From the NCBI RefSeq assembly GCF_004364775.1, contig NZ_SOAL01000001.1, positions 124,001 through 188,000 on the forward strand: 64,000 bases of DNA, given 5' to 3'. Positions 25,047-60,612 of the stretch are shown here, in pieces. Below the pieces are notes generated by a model that did not search any database, was not told the origin of the DNA, and saw only the letters and a program-made list of their open reading frames with translations. Each line of letters begins with the position of its first letter. The stretch's first letter is position 1. The translations under genes were made by a program, and so were the position numbers. This stretch comes from Comamonas sp. JUb58 (GTDB taxonomy: Bacteria; Pseudomonadota; Gammaproteobacteria; Burkholderiales; Burkholderiaceae_C).

Positions 25047-25087
25047 AAAAAAACAAGGGCTAGCGCCTTTTCAAGCCCTAGCCCTTG
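25047..25087 (-). terminator. Intrinsic terminator or attenuator between rplT and pheS
   Basis: On the minus strand CAAGGGCTAG (25087-25078) pairs with CTAGCCCTTG (25063-25054), followed by TTTTTTT (25053-25047). It ends the ribosomal-protein message or meters read-through to pheST. I looked for a Phe-rich leader peptide in the 50 bases upstream and found none. Confidence 0.8.
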
Positions 25088-25973: not shown

Positions 25974-26582
25974 TTAAGCTGTGGCTACTGGGGAGGAATT
26001 ACCCTCCACCGGCTTGCCAGCAGCAGCGCCACCGGGCTTCTTGCGCGCCGGAGCGATCATCATGATCATCTGGCGGCCTTCCAGCTTGGGGAACTGCTCG
26101 ACCTGGATCAGGTCGGCCAGCTCGTCGCGGATGCGGTTGAGCAGGTCCATGCCCAGGTTCTGGTGGGTGATTTCACGACCACGGAAGCGCAGGGTCACCT
26201 TGACCTTGTCGCCTTCAGCCAGGAAGCGCTTGATGTTGCGCATCTTGACGTTGTAGTCGCCATCATCAGTACCAGGACGGAACTTGATTTCCTTGATTTC
26301 GATGACGGTTTGCTTGGCCTTGGCCTCGGCCGCCTTCTTCTGCTCCAGATACTTGAACTTGCCGTAGTCCATCAGGCGGCAAACCGGAGGCGTGGCCGTG
26401 GCGACGATCTCGACCAGGTCAACGTCCAGCTCTCCGGCCATGCGCAGCGCTTCCATCAGCGGCACGATGCCCAGGGGTTCATTATCAGGACCGGACAGAC
26501 GCACTTCTTGTGCCTGAATCTCACGATTCAGGCGGTGTTTGCGTTCTTCGCGGTGGCGGCGATCACGGAATTCAGTAGCTAT
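25974..26582 (-). CDS. infC: Translation initiation factor IF-3 (probable ATA start)
   Basis: IF3 binds the 30S subunit and screens start codons and initiator tRNA. The 202-residue product has the N-domain ([45 protein letters not shown]), linker and C-domain ([45 protein letters not shown]). No ATG fits. A GTG at 26591 opens the frame, but it lies inside AGGGTGA, which itself makes a good ribosome site spaced for an ATA at 26582-26580 encoding the family's usual N-terminus ([M]ATEFRDRR). Rare infC start codons (AUU in E. coli) are a known autoregulatory device. Confidence 0.93.
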
Positions 26583-26676
26583 GGCTTTCACCCTAAAAAT
26601 TTAAAAGCTACGACAGCGTAGCTGCTATTTATGCAGTCCACGCTGTCCAAAGCTTTTCAGCGCCTGGGTAGGCTTG

Positions 26677-28608
26677 TTAGGCTTTAGCGGCGATGTCCTG
26701 GGCAATCAGTTCGACGAATGCATCAACGGACATCACACCGAGGTCTTTACCGCCCCGGGCGCGCACTGCTACGGCTCCGGCTGCCTTTTCCTTGTCGCCG
26801 GCGACAAGAATATAGGGCAGCTTTTGCAACGAATGCTCCCGTATTTTATACGTAATCTTCTCGTTGCGCAGATCGGTAACCACACGCAGCCCTTGGAACG
26901 GCAAGGCCTTACGCAGTTTGTCGGCCACTTCCTGCACGTAGGCGCCTTGCGCGTCGGTGATGTTGAGCACCGCGATTTGCGTGGGCGCCAGCCAGGCGGG
27001 CAGCGCGCCAGCGTGCTGCTCGATCAGGATGCCGATGAAGCGCTCCAGCGATCCCACGATCGCACGGTGCAGCATGATCGGGCGGTGGCGCTCGCCGTCT
27101 TCGCCGACGAACTCGGCATCGAGGCGCTCGGGCAGGTTCGGGTCGACCTGGATGGTGCCGCACTGCCATTCACGGCCCAGTGCGTCCTTCAGGGTGTACT
27201 CGATCTTGGGGCCGTAGAAGGCGCCCTCACCCGGCAGGTATTCAAACTCGCAACCCGAGGCACGCAGGCCTTCGGCCAGCGCTGCTTCGGCCGCATCCCA
27301 GCTCTCGTCGGTGCCGATGCGCTTTTCAGGGCGGGTCGACAGGCGGTAGAGGATGTTGGTAAAGCCAAAGTCGGCATAGACCTTTTGCAGCAGCGCGGTG
27401 AACGCGGTCACCTCGGCCTGGATCTGCTCGGGCAGGCAGAAGATGTGGCCGTCATCCTGCGTGAAGGCACGCACGCGCATGATGCCGTGCAGCGAGCCGG
27501 TGGGCTCATTGCGGTGGCAGGCGCCGAACTCACCAAAGCGCAGTGGCAGATCGCGGTAGCTCTTGATGCCTTGTTTGTAGATGAGGATGTGGCCGGGGCA
27601 GTTCATCGGCTTGAGTGCGTACTCGCGCTTTTCCGACTCGGTCGTGAACATGTTCTCGCGGTACTTGTCCCAGTGGCCGGTCTTCTCCCACAGTGTCTTG
27701 TCCAGGATCTGCGGGCCCTTCACCTCCTGGTAGCCGTTGTCGCGGTACACCTTGCGCATGTACTGCTCCACCTCTTGCCAGATCGACCAGCCCTTGGGGT
27801 GCCAGAACACGGTGCCAGGCGAGTGCTCGTCGATGTGGAACAGGTCGAGTTCGCGGCCCAGCTTGCGGTGGTCGCGCTTTTCGGCCTCTTCCAGCATCGT
27901 CAGGTACTGCTGCAGATCGTCCTTGCTGGCCCAGGCCGTGCCGTAGATGCGTTGCAGCATCTCGTTGTTGTGGTCGCCGCGCCAGTAGGCGCCCGCCACC
28001 TTCATCAGCTTGAAGTGCTTGAGCTTGCCGGTGCTGGGCACGTGGGGGCCACGGCACAGGTCTTCGAACGCGCCTTCGCGGTACAGGCTCACATCTTCAT
28101 TGCTGGGGATGGAGGCAATGATCTCGGCCTTGTAGTTCTCACCCAGTCCCTTGAAGTAGGCCACGGCTTCGTCACGCGGCAGCACGCGGCGCACAACGGC
28201 CTCGTCCTTGTTGGCCAGCTCGGTCATGCGCTTTTCAATCGCCACCAGGTCTTCGGGTGTGAAGGGGCGCTTGTAGGCGAAGTCGTAGTAGAAACCGTTG
28301 TCGATCACCGGACCGATGGTCACCTGGGCTTCAGGGAACAGTTCCTTGACGGCGTAGGCCAGCAAGTGGGCGGTGGAGTGGCGGATCACTTCCAGGCCGT
28401 CAGCGTCCTTGGCCGTCACGATGGACAGCGGCATGTCGCGGTCGATGACAAAGCTGGTGTCCACCACCTTGGCGTTGTCGCCCAGACCCACCTTGCCAGC
28501 CAGCGCGGCCTTGGCCAGGCCGGCGCCAATCGATGCAGCGACCTCGGCCACCGACACGGGGCCCGGATAGTCGCGCTTGGAGCCATCGGGAAGCGTAATT
28601 TGAACCAT
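26677..28608 (-). CDS. thrS: Threonine--tRNA ligase
   Basis: Class II synthetase charging tRNA-Thr, 643 residues. It has an N-terminal TGS domain ([24 protein letters not shown]), the second additional domain with editing function ([34 protein letters not shown]), a catalytic core with [48 protein letters not shown], and a C-terminal anticodon-binding domain. AGGAT 5 bases before the ATG supports the start. Its 5' leader contains a threonine-rich leader peptide and an attenuator (28656-28774), so supply should rise when charged tRNA-Thr falls. Confidence 0.97.
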
Positions 28609-28655
28609 GAGAAATCCTAAATAATCGTGCTGTACAGAGCCGCGCTGCCCAGAAA

Positions 28656-28774
28656 AGCAAAAAGCGCGGAGCTTGTCCGCGCTTTGGTGTGAGGAGACGA
28701 AATCGTCGTACAGGCGCGAACCACCGGCCTTATTGGCCAGTCAAACCCCAAGTGGTTGTAGTTCGCGGTGTCAT
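28656..28774 (-). promoter_or_regulatory. Transcription attenuator in thrS leader
   Basis: Four segments on the minus strand fit a classical attenuator. Segment 1 (CCGCGAAC, inside leader codons 3-5) pairs with segment 2 (GTGGTTCGCGC at 28724-28714). Segment 2 can instead pair through TTCGCGC with GCGCGGA of segment 3 (28685-28676). Segment 3 pairs with segment 4 (28670-28661) as a 10-base-pair terminator stem AAAGCGCGGA/TCCGCGCTTT with a five-base loop, followed by a run of Ts. A ribosome stalled on the Thr codons would mask segment 1, favour 2:3 and let transcription reach thrS. Confidence 0.82.
28730..28774 (-). CDS. thrS leader peptide ([14 protein letters not shown])
   Basis: A 14-codon frame with ATG at 28774-28772 and TAA at 28732-28730. 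Six of 14 codons are threonine, four of them consecutive (ACT ACA ACC ACT). GAAAGG lies about 10 bases upstream as a ribosome site. It stops just before the segments of the attenuator that can rearrange, and thrS begins 121 bases further on. The composition and the match to the regulated gene make chance unlikely. Confidence 0.82.
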
Positions 28775-28926
28775 AACCGATGTTGCCTTTCTCGCTCTTA
28801 CCAGTGGATGAAATCTAAAACGACTGTCATTTTCCCACATTCTGATGCAATCTGCTGGTCTTCCCGCAATCCAGTCGCCAACAGGCTTGCCATAATCAAA
28901 ACGATAGCAGACCTTGACGATTAGAT

Positions 28927-29679
28927 ATGCCCTATCGCTACGCCCGATCTGTTGGAATGTCCGCCTGCCTGGCTGCGTTATTGCTGCAAGGGGGCTGCTC
29001 CAGCACCCCTCCCACCCGTGGCAAAGTCCCCGAACGCGATATGCAGGCCCAGGAATGGGGCCAGTCCGATGTGAACCGCATGGCCACCTTGAGCATGCGC
29101 GCCAATCTGCAAAGCCTGTATGTGTTGATGGACAAGCTCTACCGCCGCAATCCGCAGGAATGGCGCAAGGGCGGTTTTGACAACCGCGAAGCGGCTATGA
29201 AGGCGGTGCGCGAGGCGATAGAAAACCAGCAACCCTGGCCGGATCTATTGGATCAGCGCGACATTGCCGGCATGAGCATGGCCCTGGCGCCCGAATTTGC
29301 CGGCGACCGGGTCGCCGCCTTCACCTGGGCCACGGCCGACATGCTGATCACCGCCTACGGCGGCCGCACCACCTTCTACTTGATCCATGGGCTCGATGCC
29401 CAGTCGGTCTACAACGCCTCGCGCAATCTGGAGATTGCCAACTGGATGCTCACCCACCGCAAACTGGGCAATGGCCAGGCCATGCTGCTGAGCAATGAGC
29501 TCAATGCCAACGAACGCAACCTGAGCTTTGAGCGCGAATTTGGCAAGATGATTGCCCGCAATGACCTGATGGCCGATGTCGTGTCCGAGAAATACCGGCG
29601 CGCGGTGATTGGCTATGTGCAGGGTCTGGCCGGCGGCAGCCTGCTGCAGTTCCTGCCGGTGCAAGCGGTGGCGCATTAA
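28927..29679 (+). CDS. Conserved hypothetical lipoprotein
   Basis: The 250-residue protein has a lipoprotein signal with lipobox LLQGGC (Cys about residue 24). I recognise no functional domain. The mature part is soluble, mostly helical and rich in charged residues (DNREAAMKAVREAIENQQPWPDLLDQRDIAGMSMALAPEFAGDRVAAFTWATADMLITAYGGRTTFYLIHGLDAQSVYNASRNLEIANW). Similar proteins are widespread as uncharacterised lipoproteins in Burkholderiales. It is transcribed divergently from thrS. Confidence 0.8.
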   Translation: MPYRYARSVGMSACLAALLLQGGCSSTPPTRGKVPERDMQAQEWGQSDVNRMATLSMRANLQSLYVLMDKLYRRNPQEWRKGGFDNREAAMKAVREAIENQQPWPDLLDQRDIAGMSMALAPEFAGDRVAAFTWATADMLITAYGGRTTFYLIHGLDAQSVYNASRNLEIANWMLTHRKLGNGQAMLLSNELNANERNLSFEREFGKMIARNDLMADVVSEKYRRAVIGYVQGLAGGSLLQFLPVQAVAH

Positions 29680-60244: not shown

Positions 60245-60345
60245 GCACTGAGTTGGTGATGAACCACCCCGCGCCAGCCTCCCCGCCGGCAATGGGGAAC
60301 ACGGAGGCCGCAGCAAGACCTCAGCCACGCGCCTCCACTATTGTT

Positions 60346-60562
60346 GGCCGGTATCCGGGCTGGCGATGACACAGCACACGCCTTCCCAAACACTTGTTCA
60401 AGGTATTCAGTGGCATAGTGGTGGCTGTGGATGGCGCAAAAGCCAACCATCGCTTACCGTTGCGGGGGCAGCGCAGGTTGCGTAAGGCTTGTAGGGCACA
60501 AGCGCCGCTCCTGCTTCCCGTTGAACTGCCCCCATGTGAACCACTGGGGCGAGCACCAACGG
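60346..60562 (-). promoter_or_regulatory. Cobalamin riboswitch controlling btuB-cob operon
   Basis: On the minus strand the expected conserved elements occur in order: TTGGTGCTCG (60560-60551), GCTGCCCCCGCAACGGTAAGCG, GCCACTG, GGGAAGGCG and the B12 box AGCCCGGATACCGGCC at its end (about 60361-60346). The switch sits about 100 bases before btuB. On binding adenosylcobalamin it should block expression of btuB and the genes behind it. All the elements are seen; structure was not computed. Confidence 0.92.
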
Positions 60563-60612
60563 GTACAATTTTAGCGTTAAACCCATTGCGCACTTAAGAA
60601 GACTGTCTCTCT

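Follow-up and report, generated by a model that had tools for sequence, protein, structure and literature searches.

In Comamonas sp. JUb58, a short threonine-rich reading frame stands in front of thrS, a textbook gene for two other RNA-based controls, translational repression in E. coli and the T-box of the Firmicutes. This raises the question of what the frame does there. The stretch analysed, here called the window, comprises 64,000 nucleotides (contig NZ_SOAL01000001.1, positions 124,001 to 188,000). In our reading, which we hold with high confidence, the frame belongs to a threonine-responsive, ribosome-mediated transcription attenuator of thrS that senses charged tRNA-Thr and is common in the Burkholderiales. 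The type of mechanism is known; at thrS in this order, it would add a third solution of thrS control.

The leader ORF, read directly at 28774..28730 (coordinates of the leader region refer to the minus strand), extends from an ATG at 28774 to a TAA stop, with thrS 166 nt downstream, and is kept upstream of thrS. As the first-pass annotation had reported, six of its codons (2, 5, 6, 7, 8 and 12) specify threonine, codons 5-8 consecutively; codons 4-5 read CGA-ACT. The binomial probability of at least six threonines in 13 codons is 6e-6, a post hoc value computed against the 4.1% threonine of the window ORFs. A putative Shine-Dalgarno sequence, AGAAAGG (28786..28792), has its last base 11 nt upstream of the leader ATG. 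Its GAAAGG is complementary to CCTTTC in GGATCACCTCCTTTC, the presumed 16S 3' tail found in three of five genomes searched (two of the same genus and one from another family); no match was obtained in the window's own assembly or in one further same-genus genome. Judged from the letters, both the ORF and the ribosome-binding site expected of a ribosome-mediated attenuator are present and conserved. We infer a promoter from an alignment of 24 leader upstream regions, which points to a possible -10 element at 28829..28834, reading GAAAAT in the window and four near relatives, the remaining 19 having TAAAAT or TAGAAT; a consensus promoter scan gave no hit.

Segment 1, CGCGAAC (leader codons 3-5; 28761..28767), pairs with GTTCGCG of segment 2, GTTCGCGC (28714..28721), in a helix of -19.5 kcal/mol, within which the minimum free energy structure nests a small hairpin, GGCC-AATAA-GGCC, at the stop codon (28726..28738). 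Segment 2 would have segment 1 as its partner in termination and segment 3, GCGCGGAC (28675..28682), in antitermination (2:3, -16.3 kcal/mol). Segment 3, delimited by the terminator call and the duplex energies, forms the 5' side of the intrinsic terminator 3:4 (28661..28685; -17.4 kcal/mol), which consists of AAAGCGCGGA-CAAGC-TCCGCGCTTT followed by TTGCTTTTCT as far as 28651. These three helices compete with one another, and the duplex energies and the terminator confirm the alternative pairings and the T run that had been described earlier. Behind them lies thrS (26677..28608, minus strand), encoding a threonyl-tRNA synthetase (ThrRS) of 643 amino acids (NCBIfam TIGR00418, 719.6 bits).

According to our proposal, a ribosome would load on the leader at the AGAAAGG site. 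With ample Thr-tRNA it would reach the stop codon and leave segment 3 free, either because it covers the first part of segment 2 or because 1:2 pairs once it has been released; 3:4 would then form and transcription would stop near 28651-28660. With scarce Thr-tRNA it would stall on Thr codons 5-8 and cover segment 1, upon which 2:3 would pair and RNA polymerase would continue into thrS. We infer that stalling, termination and read-through take this course in the cell.

A first set of relatives, consisting of the own genome, 24 genomes of the same genus and 16 from other families of the order, yielded 30 loci, with 29 readable thrS upstreams. Leaders start with MTPRT in all 22 readable upstreams of the window's genus (own included). 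It had been proposed to check whether the Thr run and the stems are shared by relatives: comparison shows that the leader is kept before thrS and that the four-Thr run is not, many same-genus leaders reading MTPRTTSEMYFSC, with fewer Thr codons than the window (this form recurs in the Comamonas loci L054 and L095). A pattern scan of the named genomes found at least 117 stretches with the exact leader motif. Among the matches listed, thrS is located just downstream in 116 of 117: for 114, tblastn places it at a distance of 122-268 nt on the same strand, and in two further stretches the ThrS N-terminus can be recognised although the locus ends within it; the one remaining locus stops 43 nt past the leader start. 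Comamonadaceae genera, the Roseateles-Leptothrix group and Massilia-Janthinobacterium relatives are among the matches listed.

Within the window's family, the exact motif is present in 74 of 100 genera and the reversed pattern in none of the 100. The remaining 26 genera were read by eye; 11 have a diverged leader, 14 have none and one (L370) is unscored. By the same reading, 10 of the 14 leaderless genera retain a GC-rich hairpin with a T-rich tail just before thrS (loci L345, L346, L347, L351, L352, L354, L355, L364, L366 and L369). In a sample of 150 genomes spread evenly over the order, nine carry the exact motif, in each case within about 210 nt of thrS on its 5' side. For further analysis, leaders were collected from 179 loci (L029 and L031 were left out), 174 of which gave a usable thrS start (L071, L077, L079, L095 and L130 did not). 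The exact pattern occurs in 149 of these, some being the same place fetched twice, and 126 leaders were left after removal of near-duplicates. A terminator between ORF and gene is a regular feature of this collection, as 125 of the 126 non-redundant leaders have a hairpin of -10 kcal/mol or lower with a T tail (13 of 630 shuffles). As a separate observation, the ThrS of five same-genus loci (L019-L022 and L029) is just 70-72% identical to that of the window, the genus's other loci having 86-99%; the four of them with readable upstreams retain an MTPRT leader, which suggests either that thrS was exchanged while the leader was kept or that both were transferred.

Threonine enrichment can be assessed independently of the MTPRT motif. 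From the order sample of 150 genomes, four without a thrS at the cut-off and the partial G084 were excluded, which left 145 thrS upstreams. With tRNA genes masked, 29 of these contain a short ORF with a Thr run, versus 3 on the antisense strand and 1.8 (sd 1.3, maximum 6) in 50 shuffles of the 145 upstreams. Doubtful among the 29, though kept in the count, are three ORFs located 329-365 nt upstream (two of f36, one of f11), which probably form part of other genes, and an f45 ORF without leader-like shape; the 29 come from 15 of 50 families, a few of which are represented by doubtful ORFs. An unmasked count (33 sense, 39 antisense) was misleading because tRNA-Val sequence contributes to it, and was replaced by the masked one. 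Only two other residues exceeded their shuffle maximum: Phe (20 versus 5.5), owing to the T tails, and Met (4 versus 0.6, maximum 3), a small excess. Outside the order, 49 Gammaproteobacteria examined out of 64 sampled had no Thr-run excess (3 sense, 4 antisense) and gave no sign of the attenuator. Independent families have Thr runs in otherwise different leaders, e.g. MSFRTTTTGTLNLG, MFKRTTTTRISR, MFRTSTTTQS, MQLNRTTTTS and MAVRTTTTHP. In the 112 distinct leaders, threonine makes up 22.7% of the residues past position 5 (4.1% in window ORFs), so that the leaders are rich in codons for the amino acid to which the controlled gene is tied; the number of Thr codons per leader ranges from 2 to 9, with just two in 12 of the 112.

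To model the influence of ribosome position, RNA up to the terminator loop was folded under a ribosome-sized mask (assumed to reach from the A-site codon 16 nt in the 5' and 12 nt in the 3' direction), with upstream pairing of the core of the terminator 5' arm as the readout. For the window, the mean pairing probability is 0.006 in the free RNA and 0.02 with the ribosome at the stop codon, but rises to 0.96 when Thr6 occupies the A site. For 125 leaders (the 126 minus one with a poor hairpin), the means are 0.38 free, 0.61 stalled at Thr6 and 0.37 at stop; the difference between stalled and stop states has the expected direction in 69, the opposite one in 7 and neither in 49, compared with 24-38 expected and 9-26 in the wrong direction in five shuffle rounds. 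When the middle segment was shuffled, the values became 0.65 free, 0.66 stalled and 0.63 at stop, and ribosome position made little difference any more. In this model, what is distinctive of the real middle segments is thus their low arm pairing when unstalled, as shuffled ones pair equally well when stalled (0.66 versus 0.61). The divergent leaders of other families (24 minus three without a terminator) behave similarly: the 21 have means of 0.33 free, 0.59 stalled and 0.33 at stop, with 13 for, none against and 8 without clear difference, the shuffles giving 7.4 for and 2.8 against. In silico, the leader is therefore predicted to contain a ribosome-controlled antiterminator, clearly so for the window and partially across the set. 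Synteny, Thr-run excess and this state-dependent folding in both the window and the divergent leaders support the Thr attenuator of thrS put forward in the first-pass annotation; as far as sequence comparison can tell, leader and terminator form a conserved attenuator and not a chance ORF beside a hairpin.

Compensatory changes in the stems of close relatives, which had been proposed as a hallmark, turned out to be few, because the helices are nearly invariant within each group. Segment 2 is GTTCGCG-like in most Comamonadaceae, and many others have TAGTCG, which overlaps the stop codon; pairing partners change mainly between groups. Covariation was examined in sets of 60 and 31 leaders chosen from the 126 by their segment-2 motif, a choice that favours 1:2 and 2:3; 89-98% of the helix cells are canonical, too invariant within a group for strong covariation, and no two-sided change was found in 1:2 in either set. 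Middle segments were also swapped, with one random draw each. Comamonadaceae-type terminators lose the switch when joined to TAGTCG-type middles (16 for, 21 against); middles of the "other" type weaken it (30 for, 12 against). TAGTCG-type terminators keep it with Comamonadaceae-type middles (12 for, 2 against). The model thus lends support to co-adaptation of middle and terminator for the Comamonadaceae type only.

The beginning of the leader is conserved beyond its Thr content. All 83 listed exact matches (82 genomes; the own genome is in both lists) read ATGACACCGCG, although the search patterns allowed any base at the third position of codons 2 and 3, and the first leader nucleotides are almost invariant. 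Codon 4 is CGA in 123 and CGG in 3 of the 126 non-redundant leaders, and codon 5 is ACT in 110; in a script-selected set of 48 long ORFs of the window, ACT accounts for 5.7% and ACA for 7.1% of Thr codons. Across families, in-frame CGA-ACN is the most stable element: among 27 Arg-Thr sites in 26 order-sample genomes, in ORFs chosen for Arg-Thr, 22 use CGA and 20 have ACT next (CGA 22/24 and ACT 17/24 without three sites in terminator-sequence ORFs); one of the 26 genomes has a Thr run, yet no Arg-Thr ORF. Pairing in 1:2 was considered as the explanation of the CGAAC core; p is at most 0.05 in 49 of the 126 MTPRT-group leaders, but in 1 of 19 divergent ones, and as an explanation everywhere it was not supported. 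In the P site, CGA is held by a weak inosine-adenine wobble. Tentatively, and we consider this rather less than probable, the leader may read one sensitised site, the rare pair Arg CGA and Thr ACU, rather than count threonines: decoding after CGA would be slowed, and a single ACU would thereby come to depend strongly on charged tRNA-Thr(GGU). If true, this would explain the persistence of leaders with only Thr2 and Thr5. Common descent alone may also account for the conservation of CGA-ACU.

Other functions of these elements have to be weighed. The terminator could merely end upstream transcription, with the leader ORF being incidental. A tRNA-Val gene immediately precedes thrS in many Burkholderiales, and 99 of the 145 order-sample upstreams have a sense-strand tRNA gene (97 tRNA-Val(GAC), 2 tRNA-Asp); the hairpin retained in leaderless genera also fits such a role. 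The window, however, has no tRNA gene upstream of thrS and the neighbouring ORF on the leader's other side (28927..29679) is divergent, and neither the Thr-run excess nor the state-dependent folding would be explained, which makes this reading very unlikely. Autogenous control, in which ThrRS would bind its own leader as in E. coli thrS and the ORF would be secondary, concerns the same target gene, and the near-invariant first nucleotides could mark a binding site. Yet Thr-codon runs recur in leaders that have otherwise diverged in nucleotide sequence, and the leader ends in a terminator, at a median of about 48 nt before thrS in the non-redundant leaders, rather than in an operator spanning the thrS start; we consider this even less probable.

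The remaining possibility is that the leader encodes an arrest peptide of specific sequence (MTPRTT...), responding to, e.g., a drug or a general slowdown of translation instead of Thr-tRNA. All 126 pattern-selected leaders encode MTPRT, M, T, P and R being fixed or nearly so by the pattern itself, and the distinct peptides with two Thr alone would suit such an arrest. Other families, on the other hand, retain mostly Arg-Thr plus a Thr run, and a chain of 5-6 residues is short for arrest inside the exit tunnel; of all the readings this one appears the least credible. We therefore favour the Thr-tRNA-sensing attenuator, which has relatives among known systems.

In E. coli, pheST is controlled by an attenuator whose leader, pheM, is rich in the synthetase's own amino acid and is followed by a terminator/antiterminator. 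In its layout the thrS leader shares both features; it differs in amino acid, gene and organism (E. coli versus Burkholderiales). Rfam Thr_leader RF00506 is the thrABC leader of Gammaproteobacteria; it senses Thr-tRNA through Thr codons as proposed here, but controls biosynthesis instead. E. coli thrS has an autogenous translational operator, with tRNA-like hairpins bound by ThrRS, which also acts from the thrS leader, by translational repression and not attenuation. PMC1262725 mentions the pheST attenuator and describes classical attenuation of synthetase genes for Streptomyces trpS and leuS, i.e. in another phylum and with other amino acids, and reports no conserved RNA structure upstream of the threonine operons of Actinobacteria. 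The E. coli thr leader contains eight ACC codons according to PMC1183508, whereas codon 5 is mostly ACT in the thrS leaders. For Firmicutes thrS, PMC2494555 describes T-box control: gene, tRNA-Thr charging signal and transcription termination are the same as here, but the T-box reads uncharged tRNA directly, whereas the proposed sensor here is the translating ribosome.

At the gathering cut-off, Rfam 15 has no match to the leader, including RF00506 and T-box RF00230, and neither of these matched at E values up to 10. Four sub-threshold matches on the leader were rejected, the best being Yfr1 with 22.6 bits against a cut-off of 38. The impression that a Thr leader of thrS is little described in betaproteobacteria holds for open-access titles and the starts of abstracts, where no thrS leader peptide was reported for Betaproteobacteria. 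Passages of PMC2965389, PMC3766115, PMC4833913, PMC1262725, PMC1183508, PMC2494555 and PMC12323667 contain none either; thrS may be listed in some genome-wide attenuator table. The leader can thus be annotated as an RNA family of its own, and with its range of Thr codon numbers it offers a natural series in which sensitivity can be measured against codon number and context. Lower charging of Thr-tRNA, e.g. by ThrRS inhibitors, is predicted to result in more ThrRS in these bacteria.

How far the leader reaches past thrS is uncertain, because a hairpin with a T-rich tail is located between thrS and infC (26623..26606, minus strand). Control of pheST by the thrS leader is unlikely because of a strong terminator-like hairpin between rplT and pheS (25087..25047, minus strand), CAAGGGCTAG...CTAGCCCTTG followed by T7; no obvious Phe leader ORF was seen by eye between these two genes in the window. 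The start codon of infC is most likely ATA (AUA) at 26582..26580 (minus strand) rather than the listed GTG at 26591: ATA or ATC followed by GCT was seen by eye in each of the 22 loci (24 tried) that yielded an infC N-terminus, and the GTG is absent in 6 of the 22. E. coli infC starts at AUU, a case that the ATA start of the window resembles. Additionally, the window contains a cobalamin riboswitch (RF00174, 73.4 bits) at 60329..60573 on the minus strand.
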